Assembly: GCA_007674295.1 (NCBI GenBank) | Contig: CM017451.1 | Location: 1-64,000, forward strand | DNA from: Antonospora locustae | Taxonomy: Eukaryota > Microsporidia | Length of the DNA stretch: 64,000 nt | Direction: 5' to 3' | In this document: piece after piece, positions 6,895 through 33,158 of the stretch | Numbering within the stretch: the first letter of the stretch is position 1 | Layout of the letters: each line of letters opens with the position of its first letter | Program-made: the position numbers and the translations under genes | Notes under the pieces: model-generated | The model's input: only the letters and a program-made list of their open reading frames with translations | Database searches by the model: none | Told to the model about the DNA's origin: nothing

Positions 6895-6895
6895 A

Positions 6896-7285
6896 ATGGA
6901 GAGCTGTGTGTTTTGCAGAGTCTACAAGACGAGACAGGGTATATTGTACGAGGACGAAAACACGTTTCTTATAGCTGATATTGCGCCTCTTTCCTCGGGG
7001 CACCTTTTGCTTGTAGCAAAGGGTCACTTTGAGTTTCTCCACGAGGCACCCGACAGTGTGCTTTCCAGTATTATCCTGAACACAAAAAAGGTTGCAAAAG
7101 GAATGGGGTACAAGAGATACAACTTGCTGCAGAATAACGGCCATATGCAGAGCGTGCCCCACTTTCACCTTCACATTATCCCGGCAAGCGAGGACAGCTC
7201 GCTTTTGGTGAACTGGAAGACGATGAATGTATCCGAGCAGGAGCTTGAATGCTTCCGTGCTAGAGTAAGACAGGCACTCTGCTGA
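6896..7285 (+). CDS. HIT-family nucleotide hydrolase (HINT-like)
   Basis: This is a 129-residue histidine-triad protein of the HINT type, expected to hydrolyse purine nucleoside phosphoramidates or related adenylated compounds in the cytosol. It begins MESCVFCRVY, keeping the CxxC often found at the start of HIT proteins. The fold's middle part follows (DIAPLSSGHLLLV), and the catalytic triad is HFHLHIIP near residue 95. The length is typical of a single HIT domain. The ATG immediately follows CCCCA and sits back to back with SMC2, so the two genes probably share a promoter. Substrate preference cannot be read from sequence. Confidence 0.9.
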   Translation: MESCVFCRVYKTRQGILYEDENTFLIADIAPLSSGHLLLVAKGHFEFLHEAPDSVLSSIILNTKKVAKGMGYKRYNLLQNNGHMQSVPHFHLHIIPASEDSSLLVNWKTMNVSEQELECFRARVRQALC

Positions 7286-9102: not shown

Positions 9103-11013
9103 CTAACTAAAAACACTGTCTAGTCTTCTCATCAGCTCCTCTACTCTATCCTTGACTCTTTCGTTGCCGCTCACCACTCCGTTTTCAATTTCTGCTTCCC
9201 CGACTCCGTCGCTCACCACCATTTTATATCCATGCTGCTCCACTCTGCAGAAATGATTCTTCAAGACGTCTAGAAGTGCCTCCCCCTTGCTCATTTTACA
9301 GTACCTCACGGACTCTACGTTTTCCTCCACACTTGTCACAACTCTGGTTATTGACATCGCAAGCACGTCAGACACATACCCACCCTCCCACTCTAGGCAA
9401 ACAATTCCGTTCTGAATAGTGACCTTGATGTCTTTCACTCTGATTTCCGCATCATTCTCGATGAAATCGTCATCAAAGTAGCACATAAGAGCCCGCCTGA
9501 CCAGCGCAGGCGTTGAGTTAAACCTGACGGCAAGCTTCTGCACAAAGCGCACTCCAACAGAGGGGTCTAGGACCTCAGCTTCGTCGTTTCTGAACACAAG
9601 AATGCCGTCAAACTCGGAGGTGTACCTGCCGCTGGGCACCTTTGCCCTGATCTCCTCTTCAACGCTAAATACTCCGCACTCTCCATTTCGCAGAAGCAGT
9701 ATTTCCATGTCCTTATGCTTGTGCTGAATGGCATTGCGGAGCCTTGTCATCTCGTTCACCTCCCCGTGTACCAGTATGAGATGTTCTGGCGAACAGTGCT
9801 CGATAAAGGCGCTGTTCTGTATAAAGTCCACATGTGCGCTGAAGCTTATGAACGACACAGACATCCGAAGTGCAAGACGCTGTCCATTCATGCTCTGCAC
9901 ATATGTAGGCTCGCTGAGAATTTCCTTTGCCAGCGTGCCCGGAACACAGTATCCTGTTATGATCGTACCGTTTGCCTCGCTCTCGCACCACCTTTCAAAG
10001 AGCTCTCTGCTTACTCCGCTCTGCAGCATTCCCGGACTTGCGACCATAACACACGATCCCCTATCCTCAAACTGGCTCAGCGTCTGGATGTTCTTAACAT
10101 GGTTAAACACAAACGGGTTCTTGGTCTCGCCAATCTTCTGAATGCGCTCGTTCATCATGTTCAGGTATGTCTGGTACACGTTCATGCACTTCTTAGCAAG
10201 TGCGCTGACATAGTATATAGGAACGTTCATACGATGTGTCTCCCAGTGCTCTTCAAGTATCAGAAGCAGCTCCTGTGCACGGCCTAGGGCAAAGACAGGA
10301 AGCAGGCACCTGCCGCCCTTGTTTACTATTCTTGATATTTCGCCTATAAACCTACTTTCTCTTTCCCTCTTGGGGAGGTGACATCCTACTCCGTATGTTG
10401 ACTCACAAATTAAGATGTTTATTTTTTTTGTCGGAAGGTCTGCTGCTCGGAGGTGCCTGTCTTCCTCTCTTGAGTAGTCGCCTGTGTACAATATCTTGCA
10501 CAGCCCAACTTCGATCAGAAACATCGCAGCACCCAGCACGTGACCTGCGTTCAGGGCCGTAATTCGAAAGTTCTTGATTCTTATCTCCTGGTAGTAGTCA
10601 ATTGCCTTGATTCTGCCGGTGCAAGACGCAAGATCCTCGTCTGTAAAGATGTCTGTGTCGCTGGTGACATGCAGCAAGCGAATGTAGTCGTTAAGAAGCC
10701 ACTTCAGAATTGTCTTTGTGGGGTGTGTCATGTAAACATCTCCACAGAATCCTGTTTTTTCTGTCAGAAACGGTAGGGCTCCTCCATGATCCAAATGAAA
10801 GTGTGTCACCAGTACCGCATCGACCTTTGAGAGATCAATCAAGTCAAAAAACGGCAGGGATGATTGTCCCGTGTATGCAGGATGAATGCCGCAGTCAAGA
10901 AGAATCTCTGTGTCTCTATACTTCATGTGAATGCAGGATCGCCCAACCTCGTTTCCAGCACCAAGCGGCGTGATGTAGATCTTTGAGTCGTTGTCCACCT
11001 GATCTTTGTCCAT
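9103..11013 (-). CDS. YSH1: Cleavage and polyadenylation endonuclease CPSF73/Ysh1
   Basis: This nuclease cuts pre-mRNA before polyadenylation as part of the cleavage and polyadenylation factor. The 636-residue protein shows the metallo-beta-lactamase motif THFHLDHGGALPF, a later ligand in NAGHVLGAAMF and the aspartate in LYTGDYSREEDRHL. The beta-CASP region follows, with CESTYG, VFALGRAQEL and the terminal metal-ligand histidine in SFSAHVDF. A CPSF73-type C-terminal domain completes it. All catalytic positions look intact. The ATG at 11013 directly follows CCCC; a longer reading to 11070 needs a TTG start. The gene is divergent from the VEFS-like gene, with about 100 bp between them. Confidence 0.94.
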   Translation of the reverse strand: MDKDQVDNDSKIYITPLGAGNEVGRSCIHMKYRDTEILLDCGIHPAYTGQSSLPFFDLIDLSKVDAVLVTHFHLDHGGALPFLTEKTGFCGDVYMTHPTKTILKWLLNDYIRLLHVTSDTDIFTDEDLASCTGRIKAIDYYQEIRIKNFRITALNAGHVLGAAMFLIEVGLCKILYTGDYSREEDRHLRAADLPTKKINILICESTYGVGCHLPKRERESRFIGEISRIVNKGGRCLLPVFALGRAQELLLILEEHWETHRMNVPIYYVSALAKKCMNVYQTYLNMMNERIQKIGETKNPFVFNHVKNIQTLSQFEDRGSCVMVASPGMLQSGVSRELFERWCESEANGTIITGYCVPGTLAKEILSEPTYVQSMNGQRLALRMSVSFISFSAHVDFIQNSAFIEHCSPEHLILVHGEVNEMTRLRNAIQHKHKDMEILLLRNGECGVFSVEEEIRAKVPSGRYTSEFDGILVFRNDEAEVLDPSVGVRFVQKLAVRFNSTPALVRRALMCYFDDDFIENDAEIRVKDIKVTIQNGIVCLEWEGGYVSDVLAMSITRVVTSVEENVESVRYCKMSKGEALLDVLKNHFCRVEQHGYKMVVSDGVGEAEIENGVVSGNERVKDRVEELMRRLDSVFS

Positions 11014-11113
11014 GGGGTACAATTCCTTTTTTGTAATGGCAATGGAAAAGACGCAGTAGTCCTCATGCAAAACACCTGCCCTCTGCTAAAATCCCGTATG
11101 TCTGTCCACACCC

Positions 11114-12397
11114 ATGTCAAATGCGTTGCCGCCAGAGAAATGGTTTCTCGAAAACAGATTGGGGGTCTCGCCATCCTTTTTAGAGAGAAGCTTGAAAAGA
11201 TATGTTGAAACGCATGCTGTCCAAACGCTACTCGTAGCCGAATGCTCTTCTATGTTTATTCAGGCGCTTATTCCGCTGGGCAGTTTATCACAGCATCTTC
11301 ACAGACGCATGCGCATGCATGTGCACGGATACCAGAAAAACAACCGCTTCTACAACGCAATTGAAATGTCTGCAGAGCTCACTGAGAAAAATAACTCTCT
11401 GGTGCTGGATAATCCCCTGGAAACAAGGCTAGGCATATTCTCGTGCCACAATGAGATCACCCTGTTCGTGTTTCTGGCTGCAGGACGATGCACCGAGCTG
11501 CACTATGCATCATTTTTTCCCTGCAGACTCCTTCGCCACCATGAGGTGTTTCTGAGAAAACTTTATGTGCAAGTTCCAGGACGCTTTTTTGAAATAGATG
11601 AGACACCATCCTATAAGATAGACGTTCGGGTGTTCAGTTCAAGAAACCTGCACTACAACTGGAATGACCCAGTTGAAAAGCCCACTGGTGATGGGTTTTC
11701 TTTCGTGTTTGAGAATGCTGTGTACAGGCTGGCCAGTATACGTTGCATTTTTTGCCTCAAAGAGCAGGCAAGCGAGGAGAGTCTTTGCCAGCACATAGAG
11801 AATGTACACATGTACTTCAAAGCAGTGCTCTGCGAGGCTGCACATGCAAAGGAAGAAGACTCTTCACAATGCGAAGTTAGCGGGCATGTCCCTGTAAGAA
11901 GCAGCGCTAGCATTTTCTACAAGACAAAGAATGCACAAAGTGTTTCCGCAACGAGACGTATGATAAAAATCATCCCTGTGAACGGAAATGCATTACAAAA
12001 TGTGCAGGGCATATTTTGCTTCTACAGAAGACAACGCAGAATTGACAGAAGTCGCATATATACATTTCCATACACAAACTACCTGGAGCCTGAGACTTTT
12101 GAGCCGCTTGGGACGAAAAAGATATCTTTTCCATGGCAGAAGTGGTTGATGGGTAAGAGGCTAGATGAAATAATCGATCTTCCGGCAGAGCAAGTGAGAA
12201 TCATCAAGGAGTGGAACATCTTTATACAAGGCAAGAAGGTCAGCCCGTCCAGTAGAAACATTCTCTGCTATGTGAAAGAGTTTGTGAAGATGCACAATCC
12301 CTCGTTTGAGATGTTTATGTTTATTACATGTCTGTACAATAATGCAGTGCTGAGCATAGAGGAGGTCTGCGAGGTTATCATGGAAAAAGTTCTGTGA
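11114..12397 (+). CDS. SUZ12/VEFS-box-like C2H2 zinc-finger protein
   Basis: This is a 427-residue protein with the layout of the VEFS family (VRN2, EMF2, FIS2, Su(z)12), the scaffold subunit of Polycomb repressive complex 2. A single C2H2 finger lies at C211, C214, H227 and H232 (CIFC...CQHIENVHMYFK), comparable to the SUZ12 pattern with F two residues after the last H. At the C-terminus (about 339-427) a VEFS-like helical block contains WQKWLMGK, IIKEWNIFIQG and ILCYVKEFVKMHNP, comparable to the W-N-x-F-V and F-V-x-x-H-G segments of VEFS boxes. The N-terminal 200 residues contain beta-rich stretches without a clear name. The CCC sits directly before the ATG. The assignment rests on domain order and a few motifs; no EZH2 or EED gene is in the window. 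Confidence 0.6.
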   Translation: MSNALPPEKWFLENRLGVSPSFLERSLKRYVETHAVQTLLVAECSSMFIQALIPLGSLSQHLHRRMRMHVHGYQKNNRFYNAIEMSAELTEKNNSLVLDNPLETRLGIFSCHNEITLFVFLAAGRCTELHYASFFPCRLLRHHEVFLRKLYVQVPGRFFEIDETPSYKIDVRVFSSRNLHYNWNDPVEKPTGDGFSFVFENAVYRLASIRCIFCLKEQASEESLCQHIENVHMYFKAVLCEAAHAKEEDSSQCEVSGHVPVRSSASIFYKTKNAQSVSATRRMIKIIPVNGNALQNVQGIFCFYRRQRRIDRSRIYTFPYTNYLEPETFEPLGTKKISFPWQKWLMGKRLDEIIDLPAEQVRIIKEWNIFIQGKKVSPSSRNILCYVKEFVKMHNPSFEMFMFITCLYNNAVLSIEEVCEVIMEKVL

Positions 12398-12538: not shown

Positions 12539-13743
12539 CTACAAGCACAGGAGCTTAGATATGCTGATATCCCTCCGCACGGCCATCGAGTATCCATCTT
12601 TGTATCTGTATCTGAATTCCTTTTTTCTCTCTACCTTCTTGACGAAGACGAAGTTCTTCACAAAGACGACCCATTCAGTGTCCTCGATCTTGTAGCGGTT
12701 TATTACGAACTTGAGGTGTTCGATGAGGACATGGTTGTTTCTGTCCTCCTTGAAAAGCTTGAAGAAGGGGAGTATGTGTGTACAGTACACAGCATGGTCG
12801 CTCCGTGTCCTATGCGCACAGGGAACAGGCTTTTGTGCACTCCACATGTTGCTTCGAGCACCTGTTTTGTAAACCTTGTCTATTGGCAGAAAGTGGTAGT
12901 TTTCTGGAAGCAAATCTACTGTCGAAAACGACTCGCAGATTTCAGCAAGGTTTGCAAGTGATGTGTCTATGCTGGCATAGCTGTTTCCAATGATGCTTGA
13001 CACGTGTAGAGTGCAATGTTTCTCATAGTATGCGAATCGGTTTGCACGCTGTGCCAGCGCGTCTTTCACGATCTGAAAGTGGCTTCTGACCAGCGTTCTC
13101 ACCGTCTGCACGCCCGACGACAGCGCTTTAGACGACATGACCTGAAGCGTATTCAAAATACTTCTGAAGTCTCCTGCGCATTCCTCTGCAAGATAAAGCA
13201 GTGTCCTTCTGTCAAAGACAACCTCTTCTTGCTTTAACACTAGCGCCAGTCTGTTTGCAACATCCATTGCACTGGGCCTCTGCACAATAATGACATCAAA
13301 GCAGCCTGTCTGGAGATTGTATCTGTCGTTACACGTGAATACTACTGGCACAAATGTTCTTTGCGAGTTTTTTGTAAGATTTCTAATAAACGCAATGTCT
13401 TGTGGAATGCAGTCAACCTCGTCAACCAAAACAAGGTTCTTTTTATTAGTTATTGTGTTACAGTGCGACAGTCCAATTACTTTGTCTGCAAGTTCCTGCG
13501 TTCTGCAAGTTCCTGCGTTTATCTCTACGACGTTATATCCCAGCATATTTCCAAAACAGTCACAAGCGTGGTTTTTCCATATCCTGATGGCCCGCAGATG
13601 AGCAAGGGCTTTGCACACGGTTTCCAGCTTTTTAGCCATCTCAAAACATCGCACTGGATGTTTTTTGAAAAAAGCAGCTCCGTGAACTTTCTTGGCCTGT
13701 GCTTTTCGGACCACAGGCTGTGCAATGTGTTTTGACGAGTCAT
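12539..13743 (-). CDS. RFC1: Replication factor C large-subunit-like protein (one apparent frameshift)
   Basis: The protein starts at ATG 13743 (CCCCTGTCATG) with SLWSEKHRPRKF, LRWLKSWKP and Walker A GPSGYGKTT, as in RFC1. The frame then breaks at a T4 run on the coding strand (13553-13556). One base later the next frame continues without loss into GNMLGYNVVEINAG, Walker B LVLVDEVD, sensor 1 VVFTCNDR and the collar helices, with the RFC1-like LLPENYHFLP. The joined product would be near 400 residues, lacking the N-terminal BRCT region of larger RFC1 proteins. RFC1 loads PCNA onto DNA with RFC2-5. Because both halves remain well conserved, a sequence error is as likely as a true break; programmed slippage cannot be ruled out. 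CTF18 is the main alternative identity. Confidence 0.75.
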
Positions 13744-13978: not shown

Positions 13979-15754
13979 TCACTTCTGCTCGCTATGCACA
14001 GTTTTATCGATTTTTACCTTCTGCACAGGCAACGCATAGTCTATGCCAAGGTCGTGCAAGTATTCATTGAGCATAGAGATAAAATCTCCCCGCTTCTCAA
14101 GGTAAAGTTCGTAGTTCTGCCAGTTTCCTCTAAATTGTACCCATATGCACAGATTGAGCTTGTTAGAGTTCTCGATCGAGTCGTAGAAGATGCGTAAGTA
14201 CTCTGTAAACACCTCCGAGTTGCTTTTCAGGTAGTTTTTCAGCTTCTGGGCAAGCTTTTCTACTTTTTCTTTTTCTGTCAGAGAGCTAACCTGAATCTTG
14301 TGCTGCTCTAGAAGCATGTGGCTTCGCTTAATGTTCAAAATGGGCTTTCTGAGCAGCACAAAGTTTGGAATGTGTATAAACGTCCCGTCCCACCGGTAGA
14401 ACGTGGTGGACACAAGGTTCAGCTCGGACACTACAAGGTTTTCGATCTCCTTCTCAAGCTTGATGAAAACACGGTCGCCTATTCCAAAGGGATGTATCAC
14501 AAAAAGCAGAACTATGCTGTCAATTGTGTTTCTGATGCTTTCCTTGAATACTATCACAACTCCAAACATCGCAGAGAAAAAGCCAGTCACCTGCTTCAGA
14601 CTCTTACTTCCTCTGAAAACAATGCACATGAGAGACACAAGGATTATAAATGCGTATATGATCATCTGCAGCTTTTCCGATGCAAGCAGCATCTGCTTTA
14701 TGCTGTTTCTGAGGTAGAAGTGCTCCTTGTAGTTTCTCTCGACAAGCTTGTATATCTCGCTGTATGTCAGCTCTAGGTCCTCACTCATTCCGAGGTAGTC
14801 CAGCAGAGCCTTAAAAAGTTCGTTGCTTGGCGCACACTCTCTGAGATCGCGCATATACCTGAACTCGCCCTTTCTGCTTATTTTCTTTGCACGGGACTTG
14901 ACAAGCTTCGTAAACTCCCTTGGACTTTCGTGCGGACTGGGCACTACTCTGGTTCGGTTCTTGAATTCCTTGAAAATGATGCGCCAGCTATCTCCTGCTC
15001 CGTCATCAAATGTGTAAGCATCGTTTTTCCTTGTTGCCAGGTTCCATGGAATACCGTACTTGAACACTCTGTTTGAAAATGTGATGATGTCCTTGCTCCT
15101 GAGAAAGTCCAGAATGACATTCTCAAGTAGCTGGCGCTTGACTCTGTTCATGTACATGTTGTAGTTGAACGACCCCCGTATCTTCAGCACGAAGACCTTT
15201 GAGAATCCCATCAGCAGCGAGGTCATGAACAGAATCTTCATTATGTCAAACAGCTTTATGTCAAATGACTCGTCTCTGTTCAGATAGAAGTCGACGTCTT
15301 TTCTGAACATAAACACAAGAGCAGTCATCACAACAAACGAGATGTGCTGGTCCGTCTCGTTTACGTAATACGCTAAAGTGCTGTTTGGCACAAGAGTGTT
15401 CATAAGAAAGCGCGATGTGTAGAAAATGACATATGACAGAAGTACATGGAGAAACACAAATGCAGATATGTGGAGAGTAACGGTCCCAATGTTGGCTGGA
15501 TTTCCATGCATGTCGTGTCCTCTTTCTGTGTTCCTCACCAGAGGGTACATCGCAAGAACCAACAGTCCGATAACGATGTTCTGAATGTACTTTATAGACG
15601 AGACAAACTTAACAACCACGTTTTCCTCCTTTATCACATCGTCATTTTCCTCTTCGTGATATGTGTCTTTCGTAGATGCCGAAATAAGCGTGTAGTTGTG
15701 GCTGTCGCTTTCACTCATCTCTTCCTCCGAGTATGAAGAAGCAGACCTAGGCAT
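13979..15754 (-). CDS. MscS-family mechanosensitive ion channel
   Basis: This is a 591-residue membrane protein. After an acidic, serine-rich N-terminus there are several hydrophobic helices: around IGLLVLAMYP, the VTLHISAFVFLHVLLSYVIF region, FVVMTALVF and the segment near LFMTSLLMGF. A loop region follows, then the MscS core with TM helices (IIYAFIILVSLMCIVF, FFSAMFGVVIVF), pore-helix segment IRNTIDSIVLLFVIHPFGIGDRV and a beta domain. This is the layout of fungal endomembrane MscS-like channels, which release ions in response to tension. Microsporidia carry several such genes, possibly for osmotic handling during spore germination (inference). The CCC-ATG start at 15754 is clear. No EF-hand is obvious. 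Confidence 0.88.
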   Translation of the reverse strand: MPRSASSYSEEEMSESDSHNYTLISASTKDTYHEEENDDVIKEENVVVKFVSSIKYIQNIVIGLLVLAMYPLVRNTERGHDMHGNPANIGTVTLHISAFVFLHVLLSYVIFYTSRFLMNTLVPNSTLAYYVNETDQHISFVVMTALVFMFRKDVDFYLNRDESFDIKLFDIMKILFMTSLLMGFSKVFVLKIRGSFNYNMYMNRVKRQLLENVILDFLRSKDIITFSNRVFKYGIPWNLATRKNDAYTFDDGAGDSWRIIFKEFKNRTRVVPSPHESPREFTKLVKSRAKKISRKGEFRYMRDLRECAPSNELFKALLDYLGMSEDLELTYSEIYKLVERNYKEHFYLRNSIKQMLLASEKLQMIIYAFIILVSLMCIVFRGSKSLKQVTGFFSAMFGVVIVFKESIRNTIDSIVLLFVIHPFGIGDRVFIKLEKEIENLVVSELNLVSTTFYRWDGTFIHIPNFVLLRKPILNIKRSHMLLEQHKIQVSSLTEKEKVEKLAQKLKNYLKSNSEVFTEYLRIFYDSIENSNKLNLCIWVQFRGNWQNYELYLEKRGDFISMLNEYLHDLGIDYALPVQKVKIDKTVHSEQK

Positions 15755-16294: not shown

Positions 16295-18106
16295 CTATAC
16301 TTGCTTTATGTTGCGTATTGTCTCTTCGACCATTGCGACCTCTTCTTTTAGCATGGATCTTCTTTCTTTGACATGCGGGTCTTCAAGATTTCCCATGCTC
16401 ATGTTTGCAAGCTCCGCACTAATGGATGTCGGTAGACTCTCCTTCATGTAGCTGAGGTAGAAGTAGTAGCACGACTTAATTGCAAAGTCAACAAACGACT
16501 TATTGAACATCTTGTAGTACTCATCAACCAGCCCAAGTACAACCTTAAGCTCAAACATGCTATCAAGCACAGGCCTTTCGTTTTCTGTATCTCTGCTCAA
16601 AAACCCCCATATCTCGTTCTTTCTTGGTTTCTTGCTCTTGGCCGAACTCTCCAACACGTTTGCAATGATTCTGCTTGTTGAGAAGTCAGGATGGTCAAAG
16701 TTGAGAAATGACGTCTGGATTTCAAAGTGCTCGCCAATGGCACTGCCTAGTCTCGTACACTGCATGCATATGGCGTCTCTGGTACTTTCGTTCAGTCTGT
16801 CAACAAGCAGAGGATACTGCGCAGATGCAACATTCAGAATGCTATCTACGACTCTGGCATGGAACCTGTCGATTGCCGCATTCACACATTCTCTGAGATA
16901 CGCTGCCTTTCTGATGAAGGCCATGTGTAGAATTCTGTCAGACATGAACAGCGAGCTTGAGTATGTAAGCTCTTCCTTGATGAAGTTGTTGACATTGAGG
17001 TCGCCAAAGTCACACTTGAACTCCTTCTTTAGCTCGCACACTAGGTTAACCTTGTTTCTCAGCGTGAAGCACGGGTTCTTTGATGGGCATCCATCGATAA
17101 GCTCGCAAATTGTTCTGTGATAACTTAGTGATATCTCGTGCCTATCTGTGTCTGTCAGGTCTCTAGGCTCCTTTGTCCTTCCAAGTTCACTTCTAAGTGC
17201 AGCCAATCGCCCGTGCAGCCTATTTTCTATGCGGGGCATCTCTGCAGTCACCATGGACGAAAATATCTCAAAGAGCTTTGAAGTAAGATATCGAGACCCG
17301 CATCGCTCAGAAACACATCTGTATACGGCACTTCGTGCAAAGAACCGCTCCTCCTGCTTCTGTGCATCTGCAAGACTTGTCTGCATGTTTATCTGCGCTT
17401 GTGTCCTGTTGATTACACCCACATAGCCGTGCTTCAGTGGGTGTGCAATGTTCTTCAGGATGTCAAGACAGTTTGTTCCGTCATCCATCAGATCGATTTT
17501 TGTAACTACGCCCAGCGTTCTCATGCCCTCTGAATCCACCTGCGATGCGATCTTCAGGGCCTCGCTGTTGGCAATGTCGACGTTTGCACTTACGATGGCA
17601 AGTATAAACGTGTTTTTTTCTCTTGCATACTCGACGATCAGGCTTGCAACTCTGGTCTCGATATCAAGCGGCTGATCTCCCTTTGGAATTTTCGTCAGTC
17701 CAGGTAGATCAACAAGAGTTAGCTGCAGAGCATTCTTCAAGTGCACAAACATCGTGATTGCCTCTGCAGATATTCCCCTGTTTGTCCCGCAGACACTGTT
17801 CATTCGCCTCTCTATCTCGTCTCGAACGCACTCAAGCTTGTATATTCGGCATCCGTCGCCAAACTCGACAAACTCTTCTCCGTTTGCGGGTCTCATGTTG
17901 ATGACTACGGGGCAGCGCGTGACTAGATCGTGTCCGCGTGGCAGAATGTCTCGCTGAATTATTTGTTCAAGAACCGAGCTCTTTCCACTGCTCTGCGGCC
18001 CAACAACAACAATTTGCGGCAGACTAAGTGCAAGATCTGGATATCTTGCGCAGAGACTCTGTATTTTGAGGATGCTCTGGAGGCTCTGGTCTCGCCTTCT
18101 CATCAT
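16295..18106 (-). CDS. Dynamin-family GTPase (Vps1/Dnm1-like)
   Basis: This is a 603-residue dynamin-related protein that would assemble on membranes and drive fission using GTP. The GTPase domain occupies about residues 25-300, with G1 GPQSSGKSS, switch threonine in the TRCPVVI region, G3 DLPGL and G4 TKIDLMDD. A stalk follows and a short GTPase effector segment closes the protein. No PH domain or proline-rich tail is present, as in Vps1/Dnm1-type proteins. It is about 100 residues shorter than yeast Vps1. Whether it serves vacuole/Golgi traffic, peroxisomes or mitosomes cannot be told. The start at 18106 follows CCCCCA, and the gene is divergent from the RMD1-like gene. Confidence 0.92.
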   Translation of the reverse strand: MMRRRDQSLQSILKIQSLCARYPDLALSLPQIVVVGPQSSGKSSVLEQIIQRDILPRGHDLVTRCPVVINMRPANGEEFVEFGDGCRIYKLECVRDEIERRMNSVCGTNRGISAEAITMFVHLKNALQLTLVDLPGLTKIPKGDQPLDIETRVASLIVEYAREKNTFILAIVSANVDIANSEALKIASQVDSEGMRTLGVVTKIDLMDDGTNCLDILKNIAHPLKHGYVGVINRTQAQINMQTSLADAQKQEERFFARSAVYRCVSERCGSRYLTSKLFEIFSSMVTAEMPRIENRLHGRLAALRSELGRTKEPRDLTDTDRHEISLSYHRTICELIDGCPSKNPCFTLRNKVNLVCELKKEFKCDFGDLNVNNFIKEELTYSSSLFMSDRILHMAFIRKAAYLRECVNAAIDRFHARVVDSILNVASAQYPLLVDRLNESTRDAICMQCTRLGSAIGEHFEIQTSFLNFDHPDFSTSRIIANVLESSAKSKKPRKNEIWGFLSRDTENERPVLDSMFELKVVLGLVDEYYKMFNKSFVDFAIKSCYYFYLSYMKESLPTSISAELANMSMGNLEDPHVKERRSMLKEEVAMVEETIRNIKQV

Positions 18107-19377: not shown

Positions 19378-20505
19378 ATGCGAGAGTCGATTTTCAGCGG
19401 ACGAATACCCTTAACAAGTCCCAACGAGGAGATACCTTGGCAAATGAAATGCGACATTGTGCGCCACGAGGACAGAATAGAGATCAGACTGATAGACATT
19501 CGAGATCTCTTTTCGTTTTACATATGTTCGATATCGTCGGGCGACTACTACATTCTCAAGAGAGAGCAGGACATTCGGGTTGACTTTGAGACATTCGTGA
19601 GAAAGATTGTGGAGATGTTCCATGTGCTGTCGAGAAACAGGCTGCAAGCGGTGTTTTCAAAGGACAACAACAGGTTTTTGTTTATAGAGAAGAACGACTT
19701 CAAGAACATTGTAAGGCTGGAGCTGAAGTTTGTGAAGCCTGAGGAGGTGCACTACAAGCGGTATCTGAGCGACATAATATACAGAATGGAGAGCGACAAC
19801 ATAAAGCTCATAAAGGAAAATAGCTTTTTGAAGGAACAGTGCAAGGCAGGGGACAGAGAGCTGCGCGAGAAGATCAGGTACATGGAGATGGATCTGAGGG
19901 AAAACGAAAAAAAAATAAGTAGTCTCTACAGAGAGCTTGGAAATCTTGAGGAGAAGTACCTTTCCAAGAGCGTTGAAAATGACAAGCTCATTAAGAAGAA
20001 CGTCGAGCACGAGAAGGAGCTGAGCAAGCTGAGCTACGAAATGGAAAAGATCAAGCTGCGAGAAACCAAAAACGAGGCAACAAGCAGAACAGTGAACGAG
20101 CTGAATGCCGAGTGTAAGAGGCTTAGTGATAGGGTTCGCGAGCTGGAGGACGAGAATAAGCAGCTGGAGGACGAGATTCGGAGAATGAGGGACACAAGTG
20201 AGAGCAGAGCCCGAGAAAACAGAGAAGTTAGGAGCAGCAATAGCAAAATCAAAAAGGAGCTGGAGGAGCTGCGAGAGCGGCTTCGAGGCTCGGAGGAGAA
20301 GGCAAAGAGTGCGAAGCAGTCTCTAAAGAGTGCAGAGACCCGCATTAAGGAGCTTGAAGAGGAGAATAGAAGCCTGCGAAAGAAGCTAGAGAACGCACAG
20401 AGCGTGTACCACCATTTCTACAATAAAAACACAGAAAACAACAAGCAAGAGTCGGACAACAGCACACTATTCTCAAGCATTCATCCAGACTCCCCGCCCC
20501 GCTAG
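19378..20505 (+). CDS. SAS-6-like protein (N-terminal head plus long coiled coil)
   Basis: This is a 375-residue protein whose residues 24-135 read like the SAS-6 N-terminal head. A strand region IEIRLID leads into LFSFYICSISSGDYYILKREQ, then VDFETFVRKIVEMF, then FLFIEKNDFKNIVRLELKF and the helix KRYLSDII. The corresponding SAS-6 pattern (F-x-L-x-x-L-x-x-x-x-F-x-x-L-K-x-x-Q, V-D-F-x-x-F, I-V-E-x-N-x-F-K-x-L) is well kept. A charged coiled coil of about 210 residues follows, then a short polar tail. SAS-6 dimers form the nine-fold centriole cartwheel. Microsporidia organise spindles from a plaque at the nuclear envelope without centrioles, so a reused spindle-plaque role is my inference. XRCC4/PAXX-type relatives share the fold and are the main alternative. 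Confidence 0.7.
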   Translation: MRESIFSGRIPLTSPNEEIPWQMKCDIVRHEDRIEIRLIDIRDLFSFYICSISSGDYYILKREQDIRVDFETFVRKIVEMFHVLSRNRLQAVFSKDNNRFLFIEKNDFKNIVRLELKFVKPEEVHYKRYLSDIIYRMESDNIKLIKENSFLKEQCKAGDRELREKIRYMEMDLRENEKKISSLYRELGNLEEKYLSKSVENDKLIKKNVEHEKELSKLSYEMEKIKLRETKNEATSRTVNELNAECKRLSDRVRELEDENKQLEDEIRRMRDTSESRARENREVRSSNSKIKKELEELRERLRGSEEKAKSAKQSLKSAETRIKELEEENRSLRKKLENAQSVYHHFYNKNTENNKQESDNSTLFSSIHPDSPPR

Positions 20506-20984: not shown

Positions 20985-23742
<2,758 letters not shown>

Positions 23743-23750
23743 TATAAATA
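23743..23750 (+). promoter_or_regulatory. TATA-type box of the repetitive surface protein
   Basis: TATAAATA begins 27 nt upstream of the ATG at 23770. The same element at nearly the same distance precedes the two small membrane-protein genes at 44759 and 45431. This suggests a shared, possibly stage-specific promoter type; that reading is inferred. Confidence 0.5.
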
Positions 23751-23769
23751 TCCATGCAACCCTAGAGCG

Positions 23770-24651
23770 ATGAACATTTTGCATGTTATGATTGTAGCAA
23801 TCGCTCCTGTCTTAGGTGCAGAGGAGGGCCATGCATACTATATCTTTACATGTCCGCCTGCAGTGGTCCCATGTGGGGATGCCTCCGATAGTGTTATCAT
23901 CAGCAACAAGGACAACTCAATAACATATTCGGTGTACGATCCCAGTGCAGATGGCTGGTCTTCTGGGCAGCCTGCGCAGGGTGTTCCTTCCACCAGCTAT
24001 GCAAAACAGGAGAGTGCGCAACAGTGGACGGGTGGTGAGACACCTGGTGGTGGAGAAGCTCAGCAGTGGACCAGCGGACAGGCATGGACCGCCGGACAAG
24101 CATCTGGTGGTGGCCAGCAGCAGTGGTCCGGCGGACAGACGTCCGGCGGTGAGATGCAGCAGTGGTCCGGCGGACAAGCATCTGGTGGTGGCCAGCAGCA
24201 GTGGTCCGGCGGACAGACGTCCGGCGGTGAGATGCAGCAGTGGTCCGGCGGACAAGCATCTGGTGGTGGCCAGCAGCAGTGGTCTGGTGGGCAGGCGTCT
24301 GCCGGACAGCCAGGAGGTGCAGGTTTGAGCTACGGCACTGTTGTTGATGTCATGGACCACAGCACATCTGCTGCGATTCTTGGACCTAGTGCTGCAGGTG
24401 CCACTACAGGTGCCACTACAGGTGCCACTACAGGTGCTGCTGGTACATCTCAGGGACAATCTGGCCAGCCATGTTCTGGAAAGTCTGGACAAACAAGTGC
24501 TGGAAAATCAGGAGACAAGGACAGTAAGAAGAGCAGCGACAAAAAGTCCAGGTCTCGCAGTGGTTCCAGAGACGACGAAGACAACGGAGTACCTCAAGCT
24601 TCGATTTTCATGGCACTTGCTGCTGGCGCTATCTCCATGCTACTTGTTTAG
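23770..24651 (+). CDS. Repetitive, GPI-type surface protein (spore-wall-like)
   Basis: This is a 293-residue secreted protein. A signal peptide (MNILHVMIVAIAPVLG) is followed by a short cysteine-containing region (FTCPPAVVPCG), a Gly/Gln/Ser/Trp-rich middle with 13-residue tandem units (residues 119-183, WSGGQ...), a TGA-type threonine/alanine repeat, and a lysine/serine/arginine stretch (KKSSDKKSRSRSGSR). A hydrophobic end (ASIFMALAAGAISMLLV) looks like a GPI-attachment signal. The build matches microsporidian spore-wall or exospore proteins such as EnP2/SWP3, though sequence identity to a named one cannot be claimed. The basic stretch could bind glycosaminoglycans (inference). The chosen ATG gives the signal peptide; upstream in-frame codons add nothing plausible. 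Confidence 0.75.
   Translation: MNILHVMIVAIAPVLGAEEGHAYYIFTCPPAVVPCGDASDSVIISNKDNSITYSVYDPSADGWSSGQPAQGVPSTSYAKQESAQQWTGGETPGGGEAQQWTSGQAWTAGQASGGGQQQWSGGQTSGGEMQQWSGGQASGGGQQQWSGGQTSGGEMQQWSGGQASGGGQQQWSGGQASAGQPGGAGLSYGTVVDVMDHSTSAAILGPSAAGATTGATTGATTGAAGTSQGQSGQPCSGKSGQTSAGKSGDKDSKKSSDKKSRSRSGSRDDEDNGVPQASIFMALAAGAISMLLV
24124..24318 (+). repeat. 39-bp tandem coding repeats
   Basis: There are five 39-bp units, each coding 13 residues. They alternate between two forms, WSGGQTSGGEMQQ and WSGGQASGGGQQQ, with a last, degenerate unit. Pairs of units are almost identical at the DNA level, so the array seems to have grown in 78-bp steps. Length variation between isolates is likely. Confidence 0.85.
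24397..24432 (+). repeat. Three copies of a 12-bp coding repeat
   Basis: GGTGCCACTACA is repeated three times perfectly and codes for Gly-Ala-Thr-Thr units inside the surface protein. A fourth, partial copy follows. Confidence 0.8.
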
Positions 24652-25052: not shown

Positions 25053-28000
25053 CTAGAAGGAAAGGAATGCGCTGAAGATGTTGTTGTTGCTGCTGTTGTT
25101 TTTCCTTCTTCTCTGGGGCGCCTCATCTCGCGAGAAACAGAATGTCAGGTCGATGCACGAGCCGGTGTGCTTCAGTGTACTAGGATCTAGCAACTTCAGC
25201 CTGTGCGAAAACACTCCTTCGTCGAGAAAATGCAGAGGTGTTTCAACAACTCCCAGTGTGTGCGAGGCTTCAAACTGTGACCAGTCCTGAACAGCTATCT
25301 TCAGAATGTCGTATCTCTTGTCTAGTATGGCATAAACCTCTTCGTTGAAAACTGGGTTTTCTTGTTTCTTTACGATTTTTGTTCTGTGCACCTGAGTATT
25401 GTTTATGAAAACCTTGCAGAACGAGTCGCATGGCCCAGCACCGGCAGGGCTTCTGAGGTCTTGGACACTATTGACAGTGAGCTTCATACACCCCCTTTTG
25501 AGAGAGGGTTGTAGCCAGAACCTTGCACACTGCACTCGCACCTCAACCATGCAGAACACACCCGTTTCGCTGAGCAAGACCTTCTCGTTCATCTTCCTTT
25601 TGGGAACAGCACACTCACCTACAATAATGTCCTTGCCAAGCACAAGAGACCTGAACCATGCTCTGATGTCCTCTCGTCCTGTGACAAACGTGAACACTTC
25701 TTGAATCTCTCTCTGAGAGCTTACTGCCGAGCATGCAACAATCTCCTCGGAGTTTCTGAACTCGATCACAAAGTCGTCCTCCAAACCCTGAACGCTAGAG
25801 AACCGTGCCTGTATGATTTTTACCTCGTCCTTGCTGTCGCTCACACCCTTGTACTCCTTGAGATTCTCCTCCTCCACCGTCACAAGGACAGAGCCAGTGT
25901 CCACCTCGCTGCTTCTTATCGCTACCTCTCTCAAGAAGACGGAAGAGGTGCCCTCATCTGCGGCCAGCTCAGAGCCTGCAACGCTCTCGTTCACCGAAGT
26001 GTCCAGTGCAACATGCACACCATCCTTCATAATAAAGCCAGAGCCCACAAATATCTCGTCCTTTAGGTTCTCTCTGTACAAAAAAAGCTCAACATCATCT
26101 CTGTCCTCGACAGGGACGAGCACTCTCTTGTCCAGCTTCACAATGCCCACTGCAAAGGTGTCTACTGGAAATGCCCCGCTGCGTGTTCTAACCATGGCAG
26201 AGTAGCATCCACTCCCATATATTGTGGACACATCACGAAGGCTAATTTGCAGCACCTTCTTGTAGTCCTTGAAACGCTGCTCAGTGCCTGCAAGTTCGAT
26301 GTAGCTCATGTTGAACTGCAGCTCCATTCTTCCCATCTTCGCATCCCGCAGTCTGTACCACTCCTTCATTCCATCAAAGACATTTGCGACGGGGATCTCG
26401 AGGTTTGCAAGGACACTTGTATCCTCGCCGTCGCGGTTTACTACTGTGATTCGAATCGCATCTGCGGCGATATTGCGGGAGAGGAAGGTGCACTTTTCAC
26501 CAAACTTTGGAGAGTTTGAGTCGACTATTGTCTTGGTTTTGTAGACAAAGAACGTGTTTCGCGTCGCTGGCGGCAGCGTTTCTCTTTTTGAAAACCATGA
26601 CATCACGTCAAGACTTGCAATCATTGTGCTGCCTACGCTCCTAATGAGGGGCAGCGACGACTCCTCCTTCTTTGCCTGCTCAGGCTTCTCAGGCGACACA
26701 ATAACTGTGCATGCTGTTGTGTATGCACCACGTGGTGCGTTCATTGCATGCAAGTTTTCAATCTGGACTATTGTCATTGTCACCAGGGCGGCGCTTGCCA
26801 TGTGACGCTTTCCCTCAGCCTTCAGTATCGGATAGTAGCACATTGCGCAATGCAGCGTTGCCTTGGTGGTGCCCTCCTTTCCAATAATTCTCATTGTCTC
26901 CAGCCTGCTTCCGCCCATAATTTTCTTTACATGGAGACTCCCCCGCGAGGCTTGTCCGCCTGCAACCAGGTTGAAATTCACAAAGTCGTCCACGTTCGAC
27001 AGACTCAGATAGAAGAACTCACTAAACGAGAAGCGAGCACCCTCCCTTGTGCCTGTTGCATAGAGCCTCCGTCCGTCAATGTCGATTTCTCCGTGGCACT
27101 TCTCGTTCTGCCTACTCTCGAAGTCGAGGAGCTGCAGACAGAGAACACCAAGTGCCTCTGCCTTTGCCTCCAGAAGCTTTTCAAGGTTTATCTTCAGAGA
27201 CTGCGGGTTTATCAGGTTGCTCCGCAGCCCAGAGATTATTATGTTATTTATCCAGTTCGACAGTCCGGGAAGGTCCATAAGATCCACCGCCTTGAGCGGC
27301 TTCAGCGTGAAGTCGATGTACGGCTCCTCCAGCATGCAGGCCTCAACCTCCCTGACAAAGAAGCTCCGCTTTGTTATTGAAAGAATCACACGTAACTTTG
27401 TCCGAAATGCGATCTTTTTCATCAGAATGGGCAAATCCACGCCAAAGTGCGACTTCATTCCAAGGCGCGCGACCAGGACCACACGCGAGTTGTATTCTGC
27501 TCTGGAGGAGGGTCTTTCAAAGAGCATGTGTGTCTCCTTGCTTGTTTCCAGAGGAATGAAAAACAGCTCGACATCAAGCTGGACTGTGTCATCCCCAGTG
27601 CTTTCGTAGAACATGATTCCAGTGATCTTTGGTGGCTGCGACCCCAGCGTGAACTCGGTGAGCCTGATCGACCTCAGAAACGGCGGGCAGTTTTCGTAGA
27701 AGAACGTGTTGACGTTTCGAAATACCTCCTCGCTCACAAATTTCTCCACAACCGGCCAAAACCTCCCGACCACGTAGTTGATCCACTCAACAGACTCCCA
27801 GTTGTTAAGTGCCTTTTCCTTCCGGGCCTGGTTGTACACAAGCGCCTGCAGACTCACCTTAAACTGCGCCATGCTCCTGCGAAACTTGAATATGATTGCA
27901 TAAACCAGTGCAGCAAGGAAAAGTATGCTGAATCCCAACCTTCCAATGAGATACGCAAGCAGCACTCCTACCACAACAACAGAGGGGGCCTTTATGTACT

Positions 28001-28172
28001 CAAAAACACCCTGTGGAACATCAAGGTCCAGTGCACTCTGCGTCTCTTCAATGCTCCGCCTGTACATCTTCTGTGCCTCCTCTTTTGTGAACACAGGGTC
28101 TCTCTTGCTCACATCCTCATCCTTTCTTACCTGTGTGTTGCTTTTGTGTGCATGTTTCTCTGTTTCTGCCAT
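25053..28172 (-). CDS. Tricalbin / extended-synaptotagmin-like ER tether
   Basis: This is a 1039-residue membrane protein with the layout of yeast tricalbins. A hairpin membrane anchor lies near residues 62-97 (APSVVVVGVLLAYLIGRLG, FSILFLAALVYAIIF). The lipid-binding SMP domain follows from about 110 to 350 (ESVEWINYVVGRFWPVVEKF, LPGLSNWINNIIISGL). Several C2 domains come after it, the last near the C-terminus (LTVNSVQDLRSPAGAGPCD, FNEEVYAILDK, LKIAVQDWSQFEASHTLG). Such proteins tether ER to plasma membrane and move lipids. In a parasite with few membrane systems the partner membrane is unknown. The start ATG follows GGGG within 5 nt and is divergent from alpha-COP. Confidence 0.85.
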   Translation of the reverse strand: MAETEKHAHKSNTQVRKDEDVSKRDPVFTKEEAQKMYRRSIEETQSALDLDVPQGVFEYIKAPSVVVVGVLLAYLIGRLGFSILFLAALVYAIIFKFRRSMAQFKVSLQALVYNQARKEKALNNWESVEWINYVVGRFWPVVEKFVSEEVFRNVNTFFYENCPPFLRSIRLTEFTLGSQPPKITGIMFYESTGDDTVQLDVELFFIPLETSKETHMLFERPSSRAEYNSRVVLVARLGMKSHFGVDLPILMKKIAFRTKLRVILSITKRSFFVREVEACMLEEPYIDFTLKPLKAVDLMDLPGLSNWINNIIISGLRSNLINPQSLKINLEKLLEAKAEALGVLCLQLLDFESRQNEKCHGEIDIDGRRLYATGTREGARFSFSEFFYLSLSNVDDFVNFNLVAGGQASRGSLHVKKIMGGSRLETMRIIGKEGTTKATLHCAMCYYPILKAEGKRHMASAALVTMTIVQIENLHAMNAPRGAYTTACTVIVSPEKPEQAKKEESSLPLIRSVGSTMIASLDVMSWFSKRETLPPATRNTFFVYKTKTIVDSNSPKFGEKCTFLSRNIAADAIRITVVNRDGEDTSVLANLEIPVANVFDGMKEWYRLRDAKMGRMELQFNMSYIELAGTEQRFKDYKKVLQISLRDVSTIYGSGCYSAMVRTRSGAFPVDTFAVGIVKLDKRVLVPVEDRDDVELFLYRENLKDEIFVGSGFIMKDGVHVALDTSVNESVAGSELAADEGTSSVFLREVAIRSSEVDTGSVLVTVEEENLKEYKGVSDSKDEVKIIQARFSSVQGLEDDFVIEFRNSEEIVACSAVSSQREIQEVFTFVTGREDIRAWFRSLVLGKDIIVGECAVPKRKMNEKVLLSETGVFCMVEVRVQCARFWLQPSLKRGCMKLTVNSVQDLRSPAGAGPCDSFCKVFINNTQVHRTKIVKKQENPVFNEEVYAILDKRYDILKIAVQDWSQFEASHTLGVVETPLHFLDEGVFSHRLKLLDPSTLKHTGSCIDLTFCFSRDEAPQRRRKNNSSNNNIFSAFLSF

Positions 28173-28300
28173 GCCCCTCTGGCAAAAATTGTTTATTTGT
28201 TTGCTATAAGGAAATGCAGCGGAACGCTATGCCCAGCGTGCGGCGGTCCAGAGGCATCCCTGCTAGGGATCGAAATTTGACCCGAAAATGCACCCTGCAA

Positions 28301-31066
28301 ATGAAGGCAAGTGCAAGCTTCTACAAGGTGGTGGAGAAGGAAACACCCCGTGTGAAGAGCGCAACGTTTCATCCAAAGAAGCCTGTTGTCATTGTGGCGC
28401 TGCACAGCGGTGCAATACAAGAGTACGACTACCAGCTGGGTCTCCTTGTGCACGAGTTCAGGGATCACACCGGCCCTGTGCGTGCCGTTGTGTTCCACCC
28501 GCTTCTTAACATATTTGCGAGCGGGGGAGATGACACGAAGATCAGAGTGTGGGACTATCACGCAAAGCGGGTCATTTGCATGCTTGAGGGTCACAAAGAC
28601 TATGTCCGCTCACTGGATTTCCACCAGAGCCAGCCCTTTCTCCTGAGCACATCAGACGATCAGACAGTGCGTGTGTGGAACATCCAATCCAGACGTCTCT
28701 TGGCAACGCTTCCGGGGCACACGCACTATGTGATGTGCGGCAGGTTCTTTCTCGATGACTTCATCGTGAGCGGGTCTCTCGACCAGACTGTCCGTGTATG
28801 GGACTACAGAAACATAAACGAGAAGAAAGGCTCGATTCTGGGTCTTCCCAACGTGTATGTCAAGCAAATTCTGGATGCACACGAGAAGGGCATAAATGGC
28901 ATTGCAGTGCACCAGAACACCTTTGCAACGGTCAGCGACGACAAGGAGGTCAAGGTCTGGGAGTTTGATGGGAATACCGTCTCTGAGAAGGAGGTGTTCT
29001 ACCATCACCAGGGAATTGTCAGCTCGGTTCTTCTCATAAACAGATGCCTTATCAGCAACGGAGAGGACGGAATTCTGGCGATGCATTCGTTCGACACAAA
29101 GATTACTCGGAAGTTTGTCATTGAGGGTCGTTTTTGGTGTCTTGCTGGACACAAGAACCTCTACTGTGCGGGGCACGACACAGGATTCTATGTATTCTCG
29201 CTGGAGAATACGGAACGCATCTTCTGCTACGACGACGGGCTCTACTACGTGCGTGACAAGTCTATCTACTTTAATAACTTCAGAACAGAGGAGAGGCTCT
29301 ACACCGCGCCACAGGAAGTTGCTGGGCTCCAGAGGGCATCAGGTATCTATGAGGAGGAGCCTGCAATTCCCCAAGGTGTCCTGCGTAAAAACTGTCTTCT
29401 TGTTCAATATTCAGATACCTTTGACCTGATTGTAGATGGTGCAGTTGCCATCTCGGAAAGTGGAACCGGCCTGCTGTACAAAGGCCACATTGTGCTGAAG
29501 AGAGACTCCCTTCTCTTCACTTTAGATCTCTCTGGACGTGCACTTGCAGACAGAGTAGAACTCGCATGCGATCAGATTTTCCGTGCACACGGCTGCATTA
29601 TCGCTGTGCGGGGCCATGCTCTGCTGCTTGTGTCACACAGCAACTATCAGATCACCAATCTCAGAAACATCAGCTTCGACGTGAAGACAGTGGTTGCATG
29701 CGAGACGGCTATCGCAGTCATTGGGCGCAATGACGTGCTTCTGCTGAATTATAACCTGGCACCCATCGCTGCTGTGCAGGAGATCGCGCCGATCAACTCT
29801 GGATTTTTCAGCGAGGGTACATTCTTCTATTCAACAATCAGGCAGATCAAGTTTCTCAACAACGATTCTGGAATACTGAAAAGCCTTGACGATTCATTTG
29901 TGTTCCACAGAGACGGCAACACCATGTACTACCTGGGCAGAGAGGTGGGCGCCACTACAATTGACATGACTGAGTTTCACTTCAAGGCTGCGGTCAGAAA
30001 GAACTACGACGACGCAGAGATCCGCGCCATAATAGAGAGCGGCGACCTTCCAGGCCTTGCGCCGCTTGCGTTTCTTATGAAAAACCATCGCGGAGACATG
30101 GCACTGCCTTACGTCACAGACCCCAGACAGAAGCTCGAACTGTGCATGTCAAATGGACGGTACCTCGAGGCTCTTGAGCTGTGCAACGATATCGGTGACG
30201 AGACGCTGTATCGAAAGCTGGCAGATGCAGCACTGAAGGATTGCCACACAGACATTGCAGAAAGCTGTCTGATGAGGCTTGGTGACTTTCAAAGCCTGTT
30301 CATGCTTTATCTGTGCTCTCGACAGGACGCAAAAATTAGAGAGCTGTACAACTGTGTTCCACTTGAAGTCAAGGTCGGAATCGCAAAATACCTTCGTGAC
30401 GACAACTTTGTTATAGAAGCGCTTGGTGGCACTGCAGAAAAAAAGTACACGTCACACAAGTCAAAGCTAACATGCGAGGACGCTTCAGAAGCAGGCAGCA
30501 CCTTGTATAGCATGGAACTGCTGCTGCAGAAGAGGCAGGCTTTTGATACAGCAGAAATGGACTGGAGACAAGCCTTTGAGAAGGCATTGTGCCTCACCAC
30601 AGAGGGGAAGTTCAACCAGGCTCTGTGTCTATTTCGTAGCATCCTCTACTCAAAAATCGACGACGAGCATGTGAGAAGAGAGATTGGCCCATACATTGTT
30701 GGTCTTTCTGTTGAGAAGAAGAGAAGGAAGGTTCAGGACCCGCAGAAAAATGTCGAAATGTCTCTTTACTTTTCTTCTCTTCCTCTTCAGGAGGTGCACA
30801 AAATGCTTGCGATGCGGAGTGCAGTGAAGGTTCTTTTCAAGAACGGAAACATCAAGGATGCAAAGCAGATAGCACAGCAGCTGGGCACAGGCTCAGACGA
30901 GGGTCTGGAAAACAGCTCCTGCGAGAACCGCTTTGAGGTTGTTGGAAACGTGTTCTGCTACGACGTCTGCAGATTCTGCGAGAGCGGGCACCAGTGCCTT
31001 GTGTGCTATGCATGGTGCTCTGAGAAGGGTGTCTGTGCATGTTGCGAGGTCGGCCTTCTCCAATAA
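28301..31066 (+). CDS. COP1: Coatomer alpha subunit (alpha-COP)
   Basis: Alpha-COP is a scaffold of the COPI coat for Golgi-to-ER traffic. The protein of about 921 residues starts FYKVVEKETPRVKSATFHPKK and has WD40 repeats with characteristic pieces HTGPVRAVVFHP, GGDDTKIRVWDY, TSDDQTVRVWN and GSLDQTVRVWDY. A second propeller and helical solenoid follow. The C-terminus has a zinc-binding-like cysteine cluster (YDVCRFCESGHQCLVCYAWC) as in alpha-COP. It is about 280 residues shorter than yeast Cop1. The chosen ATG 28301 has CCC 7 nt upstream; the frame is open further upstream but those residues are not alpha-COP-like. The stop codon overlaps AATAAA. Confidence 0.93.
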   Translation: MKASASFYKVVEKETPRVKSATFHPKKPVVIVALHSGAIQEYDYQLGLLVHEFRDHTGPVRAVVFHPLLNIFASGGDDTKIRVWDYHAKRVICMLEGHKDYVRSLDFHQSQPFLLSTSDDQTVRVWNIQSRRLLATLPGHTHYVMCGRFFLDDFIVSGSLDQTVRVWDYRNINEKKGSILGLPNVYVKQILDAHEKGINGIAVHQNTFATVSDDKEVKVWEFDGNTVSEKEVFYHHQGIVSSVLLINRCLISNGEDGILAMHSFDTKITRKFVIEGRFWCLAGHKNLYCAGHDTGFYVFSLENTERIFCYDDGLYYVRDKSIYFNNFRTEERLYTAPQEVAGLQRASGIYEEEPAIPQGVLRKNCLLVQYSDTFDLIVDGAVAISESGTGLLYKGHIVLKRDSLLFTLDLSGRALADRVELACDQIFRAHGCIIAVRGHALLLVSHSNYQITNLRNISFDVKTVVACETAIAVIGRNDVLLLNYNLAPIAAVQEIAPINSGFFSEGTFFYSTIRQIKFLNNDSGILKSLDDSFVFHRDGNTMYYLGREVGATTIDMTEFHFKAAVRKNYDDAEIRAIIESGDLPGLAPLAFLMKNHRGDMALPYVTDPRQKLELCMSNGRYLEALELCNDIGDETLYRKLADAALKDCHTDIAESCLMRLGDFQSLFMLYLCSRQDAKIRELYNCVPLEVKVGIAKYLRDDNFVIEALGGTAEKKYTSHKSKLTCEDASEAGSTLYSMELLLQKRQAFDTAEMDWRQAFEKALCLTTEGKFNQALCLFRSILYSKIDDEHVRREIGPYIVGLSVEKKRRKVQDPQKNVEMSLYFSSLPLQEVHKMLAMRSAVKVLFKNGNIKDAKQIAQQLGTGSDEGLENSSCENRFEVVGNVFCYDVCRFCESGHQCLVCYAWCSEKGVCACCEVGLLQ

Positions 31067-31892: not shown

Positions 31893-33158
31893 CTATTCTA
31901 AGATTTTATTGAAGTTGTACATGGCTAAACAGCATCTATAGTCTAATTTGTACCCGATTACAAGCACGTCTGCAGAAACGTCAAGCTTGTACACCTGGCG
32001 TACGTTGTCTAACAGCATCCGGATGAGAAGCCCTGTCTCGATGTCGTAGAGCTTGACCGTGCTGTTCGTACCCACAACAAGAAGCCCGCGAAACACCTTC
32101 AGGGCAGTGACAATGCCGTTCTCCACGATCTTGTGCACAAGTGTTCCGGTTTGTATGTTCCACACGCCGACTATTCCATCAGCACCGGAGGTGACCAGAA
32201 ACCTCTCTTCCTCCGTAGCAGTGTCAAGGACGATGTCAAGGTACGCAACAATCGAGCGGTGAAGCTTGCACACAAAGACAGTGCGGTCCATCTTGGAGGA
32301 AAGGTGTATTGCTGCGTCCTGACCGCCCGAAACCAGGTAGTTTTTGGATAGCATTACGCAGTAAACGCGCTGTGAGTGTCTAAGGAGGCGTCTCAGAAGC
32401 ACGCCTCTGCGGAAGTCCCAGAGAATCACAGAGCCGTCGTAGGACCCGCTAATCAGATGTGTCTCGTCTGTATCGATGCATCTGACACTCTCGTTGTGGC
32501 CGCGCAACACGAAGAGACACTCGCCGTCCATGCTCCAGACTCGGATGTCGCCGTCGCGCCCTCCGCTGATGACAACACCGCCTGCGACCCTGACTGTCCT
32601 GACGGTGGATCGGTGCCCTGTGAGCACCCTTTCACAGACTCCAGTGCACATGTTCCATATACGCACGGTCTTGTCAGTACTTCCCGTTGCTAGTACGTTG
32701 CCGCTGAACATAAATGCCCACACGCCGCCAAAGTGTCCTGCAAACGCATACATCTGCGCGCTCCTGATGTCCACCATCTTGACAGAGTGGTCGTCAGAGG
32801 ATGCAACAGCACGTGTTCCATCTACTTGCAAGTGCGTGATGTCACACTGCCCGGTCTCAAGAACAGTTCTCTGCACGCCAGTTCCCTTTGTCCACGCCCT
32901 TGCGAGTAGATGCTCCCGCCGAATCGCGCCGATGATCTCGCACAAGTCTGCATTCTCCATTGGCTTCGGGCACTTATTTCTCCACAGAACATAGTTCTTG
33001 CTTATTCTTTCACACCACTCGTCAGATACTCTCATGCACTTTTTGATTGTGCGATATCGAAGCTTGGAGAGAATGTACGTGCAGAGCTCGTTCGGCATAG
33101 ACGCAACACCGTGTCTCTCTTCCTTACTGTTGTGTGTATGAAAATGAGTGGAATCCAT
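31893..33158 (-). CDS. F-box/WD40 protein (CDC4-like SCF substrate receptor)
   Basis: This is a 421-residue protein with an F-box near residues 20-65 (SMPNELCTYILSKLRYRTIKK, then WCERISKNYVLWRNK). Seven or so WD40 repeats follow, with clear blades GHFGGVWAFMFSG, ATGSTDKTVRIWNM, GHRSTVRTVRV, GGRDGDIRVWS, GHNESVRCID and GSYDGSVILWDF. This is the layout of CDC4/FBXW7 and MET30-type receptors, which bring phosphorylated proteins to the SCF ubiquitin ligase. No substrate can be named. The ATG 33158 has GGG 6 nt upstream; the longer reading needs TTG. AATAAA lies inside the coding sequence a few codons before the stop. Confidence 0.88.
   Translation of the reverse strand: MDSTHFHTHNSKEERHGVASMPNELCTYILSKLRYRTIKKCMRVSDEWCERISKNYVLWRNKCPKPMENADLCEIIGAIRREHLLARAWTKGTGVQRTVLETGQCDITHLQVDGTRAVASSDDHSVKMVDIRSAQMYAFAGHFGGVWAFMFSGNVLATGSTDKTVRIWNMCTGVCERVLTGHRSTVRTVRVAGGVVISGGRDGDIRVWSMDGECLFVLRGHNESVRCIDTDETHLISGSYDGSVILWDFRRGVLLRRLLRHSQRVYCVMLSKNYLVSGGQDAAIHLSSKMDRTVFVCKLHRSIVAYLDIVLDTATEEERFLVTSGADGIVGVWNIQTGTLVHKIVENGIVTALKVFRGLLVVGTNSTVKLYDIETGLLIRMLLDNVRQVYKLDVSADVLVIGYKLDYRCCLAMYNFNKILE

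Follow-up and report, generated by a model that had tools for sequence, protein, structure and literature searches.

A SAS-6 orthologue in the microsporidium Antonospora locustae and a candidate SAS-4-like partner in the same genome

SAS-6 is conventionally tied to centrioles, which it starts in other cells, and microsporidia have no centrioles. The question raised by the first 64,000 nucleotides of contig CM017451.1 of Antonospora locustae (the window, meaning this whole stretch) is what a SAS-6-type protein would be doing there. The open reading frame (ORF) concerned lies at 19378..20505 on the forward strand, starts with ATG and runs without interruption to a TAG stop codon at 20503-20505, giving a protein of 375 amino acids that translation, Pfam and a PDB search identify as SAS-6. 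The best explanation overall, and a fairly probable one, is that this is a retained SAS-6 orthologue that probably works with a SAS-4-like G-box protein encoded elsewhere in the genome.

Family identity and lineage

An earlier note, made from the letters alone, had claimed a SAS-6 head pattern at residues 24-135, and the resemblance proved to be far beyond chance. The full protein matched SAS-6_N (PF16531) over residues 22-118 with 76.2 bits (E 3.5e-21, cut-off 25), and residues 1-142 alone, searched against Pfam, matched the same family with 80 bits (E 2.4e-22), the only second family at E <= 10 being TarS_C2 (E 0.02). In a PDB sequence search, all 27 rows down to E 0.11 were SAS-6, led by zebrafish SAS-6 (1.3e-7). 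The head (residues 1-122, 19378..19743, forward strand) has the XRCC4-superfamily fold, within which structure comparison placed it nearest to SAS-6. Since profile, structure and an invariant dimer residue described below all agree, the family assignment of the earlier note holds, and the window protein is, with near certainty, a true SAS-6 orthologue retained in a microsporidium. A chance match or a pseudogene is ruled out by the E-values together with 43 distinct homologous proteins (39 from a first search and 4 from a second). A head of this superfamily could in principle be that of CCDC61 (VFL3), XRCC4, XLF or PAXX, a reading with a very small chance of being correct; it was rejected because Pfam, the PDB search and the structure comparison favour SAS-6, none of those families scores better, and the search with the head gave no XRCC4 or PAXX placement. 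Across the genome (3.17 Mb, 17 contigs), the SAS-6_N profile search gave this single match.

The microsporidian lineage that the earlier note had read from the sequence is borne out by a Pfam match to MICSWaP in the same genome (193 bits), which we take to be a microsporidian spore-wall family, and by the named species among the SAS-6 relatives, 13 in all, which are microsporidia (lineage check for two of them). Over residues 1-150, database entries from Encephalitozoon cuniculi and Nosema bombycis are 63% and 61% identical to the window protein, respectively; they represent the same protein in other species, and nothing distinctive was found in the window copy.

The surprise that the earlier note had attached to SAS-6 in a microsporidium was overstated. 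In the available portion of a 2013 paper, SAS-6 in E. cuniculi is stated “as previously described” (PMC3697468), and N. bombycis SAS-6 is the topic of a 2019 paper by Dai et al., known here through its citation in PMC9272817. SAS-6 is unmentioned in the main text of a 2023 study of the microsporidian spindle pole body (SPB; PMC10618108), and term searches gave no mention of it in the available text of PMC8371127 and PMC13358043 or in the first 300,000 characters of PMC9010356. The presence of SAS-6 in microsporidia is previously published, and the window copy confirms a mostly known finding.

Dimer surfaces, coil and tail

In SAS-6 of C. elegans, human and Chlamydomonas, the hydrophobic tip of the beta6-beta7 loop inserts into a pocket on the neighbouring head, and the cavity of the human protein is formed by L76, V78, F83, K86, F87, L90, H136 and L137, according to the portion of PMC7939395 that was available. 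These human pocket residues were transferred by hand via the zebrafish alignment, on the assumption that the human and zebrafish proteins are numbered alike. On this mapping, the cavity corresponds to I66, V68, F73, K76, I77, M80, R113 and L114, and the tip to F108 (codon 19699..19701), which the PDB alignment pairs with the head-to-head insertion residues F145 of Chlamydomonas and F131 of human SAS-6. The helix side of the pocket, which would receive the partner phenylalanine, lies within residues 66-80 (I66, V68, F73, I77 and M80; 19573..19617), and the codon of L114 is at 19717-19719, all on the forward strand.

Conservation was counted in an alignment of 43 sequences (A3), in which the window protein is joined by every one of its 43 homologues except P0002, whose head is 99% identical to the window protein. 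The alignment made for the model (A1) contained 34 homologues alongside the window protein; of the 39 from the first search it omitted P0002, P0017, P0025, P0032 and P0040, the last of which lacks its first 60 residues. F108, V68 and F73 are unchanged in 43/43 sequences, positions 66, 80 and 114 are hydrophobic in all 43, and position 77 is hydrophobic in 39. Mean entropy over the tip and pocket (nine positions) was 0.68 bits, compared with 1.35 bits at the other head positions (permutation P 0.009, uncorrected for burial). The dimer tip and hydrophobic pocket thus appear to be preserved, and the inserted hydrophobic residue named in the earlier note is retained by sequence, on a loop of low confidence in the AlphaFold2 model. 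Judging from these surfaces, the window SAS-6 likely forms rings or ring-like stacks.

The head is followed by a predicted coiled-coil spoke of approximately 226 residues (123-348, 19744..20421, forward strand), modelled by AlphaFold2 as helices at 123-232 and 238-348, with low pLDDT (predicted local distance difference test) and a weak point at about 231-236. Its hydrophobic periodicity peaks at 3.5 residues. The head-plus-coil build described in the earlier note is supported by the model, with a coil slightly longer than the 210 residues given there. At the usual rise per residue, such a coil would span roughly 34 nm. SAS6L has the head in common with the window protein, according to the available text of PMC3697468, and lacks the coiled coil; assignment to SAS6L was rejected since the coil of about 226 residues is present.

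Two further conserved elements lie towards the C-terminus. The coil end (residues 333-348, LRKKLENAQSVYHHFY, 20374..20421, forward strand) carries the pattern [VIML][YF].H[FI] in 43/43 sequences, with H346 invariant, and the protein closes with a proline tail, PDSPPR (residues 370-375, 20485..20502, forward strand), in which P370 is invariant. Within the last 14 residues, P[ED]S.P occurs in 37/43 sequences and P[ED]SPP in 33/43. Because both the coil end and the tail are conserved, their sequences suggest that a partner is bound there. In the available portion of PMC3776556, STIL contacts CPAP through P417, R418, P421 and P423. Reading the tail as a copy of this CPAP-binding motif was rejected, as PDSPPR has no arginine at the corresponding position of the STIL contacts, PRxxPxP.

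In comparison to centriolar SAS-6 (SASS6, Bld12p), the window protein has the head family, fold, tip phenylalanine, hydrophobic pocket and head-plus-coil build in common. It differs in its host, which is without centrioles, in the short proline tail conserved among microsporidian sequences, and in its length, 375 amino acids compared to about 600 in the portion of PMC3697468 available.

A SAS-4-like G-box protein and the genomic setting

Outside the window, contig C3 encodes a protein of 156 amino acids near 182415-182492 (L007:2370-2840, reverse strand) that combines a coiled coil with a CPAP/SAS-4-like G-box (TCP10_C). TCP10_C scored 28.5 and 31.4 bits on this protein, under the curated cut-off of 36. 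It has 37 relatives, including eight named microsporidian species, and TCP10_C is annotated for 25 of the 37 in the precomputed column of the database. Structure comparison found the open beta-sheet fold of the G-box in the candidate. In an alignment of this protein (P0041) with all 37 relatives (A2), F120, Q124 and E126 are invariant in 38/38 sequences and match the STIL-binding residues F1015, Q1019 and E1021 in sequence register; the structural register differs, pairing residues 77-156 with 962-1042, approximately one repeat slid from the sequence register. Compared with CPAP/SAS-4, the candidate has a shorter G-box sheet and a sub-cut-off Pfam score, and the large N-terminal tubulin-binding part is absent from its ORF (156-176 amino acids), where just a coil precedes the G-box. 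No microsporidian CPAP/SAS-4 was found in the literature searched, which left most subscription journals outside its coverage and included one query that missed “microsporidian”. The retained SAS-4-like protein is the part of the finding for which no published report was found, the SAS-6 part being mostly known.

These two proteins bear on the possibility that the SAS-6 fold has been reused elsewhere in the cell, forming filaments or linkers in a structure such as the polar tube, a mitosome tether or the nuclear envelope, much as SAS6L does in the Toxoplasma conoid. Such reuse is unlikely: unlike SAS6L, the window protein retains its coil, and the retention of a SAS-4-like G-box protein fits a centrosome module better than an unrelated reuse.

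The rest of the genome was searched for further centrosome and spindle-pole components. Three tubulin genes are present (contigs C4, C9 and C5; L003, L004 and L005), with best PDB matches to beta, gamma and alpha tubulin, respectively, and no delta or epsilon tubulin was found with a tubulin profile that also matched 13 of 14 prokaryote controls. STIL_N, Plk4_PB1 and CFA20 had no match in the genome profile searches, a weak negative as all 14 control genomes were prokaryotic and none of them gave a match. Divergent eukaryotic domains can be detected in this genome, since SAS-6_N, POLO_box and GCP_C were all matched, the last marking at least one gamma-tubulin complex protein. A single polo-type kinase (C10, 469 amino acids) has one polo-box match, and we read it as Plk1/Cdc5-type by its build and not by a tree. 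This inventory bears on a third possibility, that a tiny and transient but real centriole-like cartwheel forms in a stage unseen by electron microscopy. The SAS-6 dimer surfaces preserved in sequence and the G-box-like protein would be in keeping with it; the undetected delta and epsilon tubulin, CFA20 domain and Plk4 polo-box, together with the plaque seen in published tomography (PMC10618108), argue against it, and we regard it as improbable.

Among five EF-hand matches, the one ORF compared with the PDB (L008) was led by calmodulin-type chains, with one centrin-2 among the 60 rows listed, and no clear centrin could be named from it. A coiled-coil ORF of 623 amino acids on contig C2 near 189151-189282 (L015:3534-5405, reverse strand) has a Cnn_1N (CM1) match near its N-terminus, scoring 21.7 bits against the genome and 17.5 bits when the protein itself was scanned, both under the cut-off of 28.5, and is a candidate gamma-tubulin complex receptor of Spc110/Pcp1 type. 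A second, weaker CM1 match lies on C6 near 27464 (17.2 bits), and the same model also gave sub-cut-off matches in 3 of the 14 prokaryote controls.

Around the SAS-6 gene, a DUF155 (RMND1/Sif2-Sif3/Mrx10) ORF lies 72 bases ahead of the start codon, and the next gene after SAS-6, on the opposite strand, encodes by Pfam a CDC48-type double AAA ATPase with CDC48_N below its own cut-off. Two genes from SAS-6, a Dynamin-family GTPase with Dynamin_N, Dynamin_M and GED (16295-18106, reverse strand) was identified by Pfam. According to the available text of PMC10618108, microsporidian dynamins are tied to mitosome division, and mitosomes are located at the SPB. Any significance of the proximity of dynamin and SAS-6 is without support. 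Other Pfam assignments in the window include an SMC protein (3891-6896), a CPSF73-like nuclease (9103-11070), a COPI alpha-like WD40 protein (28133-31066), an F-box WD40 protein (31893-33182) and an M24 peptidase (33214-35034). An ORF of 1039 amino acids (25053-28172, reverse strand) combines an SMP domain (MUG190-like) with a C2 domain, which we take to be the build of membrane-contact-site lipid-transfer proteins. Four further ORFs (11114-12397, 12539-13714, 13979-15754 and 23635-24651) matched no Pfam family at E 1e-6.

A possible role at the spindle pole body

Taken together, the microsporidium has kept a SAS-6 orthologue whose head retains the dimer residue and the pocket at the sequence level and is followed by a heptad coil and a tail that is also conserved. 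This protein probably acts with the conserved G-box protein of the same genome. Because STIL was undetected, the connection between the two may be direct or may pass via an unrecognised linker. As the earlier note inferred, SAS-6 may have been kept for the spindle plaque, and an SPB scaffold built from it and the SAS-4-like protein would best account for the retention of both in a reduced parasite. A more specific form of this scaffold, which we consider doubtful, is an acentriolar cartwheel at the SPB, in which a SAS-6 ring or stack would have its spokes capped directly by a miniature SAS-4-like G-box, without STIL, Plk4 or centriolar microtubules. The G-box might there read the proline tail of SAS-6 in place of the proline motif of STIL, which is a guess, and the tail mismatches PRxxPxP.

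Precedent for recruitment of SAS-6 to an SPB comes from fission yeast, where Pcp1 brings expressed Drosophila SAS-6 to the SPB, according to the available portion of PMC6559791. Several observations weigh against a SAS-6 scaffold at the microsporidian pole. The PACT domain, the SAS-6-binding part of Pcp1, had no match in the genome in a search that had no positive control. In the AlphaFold2 model, the loop bearing F108 (residues 107-111) has a confidence under 50, and the pocket lysine (position 76) is present in just 14/43 sequences. In the tomography study (PMC10618108), E. cuniculi SPBs look homogeneous, with layers visible just in another resin, and no report of a cartwheel was found. In addition, the 2019 N. 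bombycis localisation study, known by its citation, might put the protein elsewhere.

A large parasite phylum retaining SAS-6 with intact ring surfaces and a trimmed SAS-4-like protein, with delta and epsilon tubulin undetected, would set the scaffold job apart from that of the microtubule barrel. There are now named candidates for the microsporidian SPB; of the 21 yeast SPB proteins considered in the 2023 study (PMC10618108), homologues were found for 4. The spindle pole of this parasite may rest on a reduced centriole scaffold, and what builds the SPB in microsporidia becomes a testable question.
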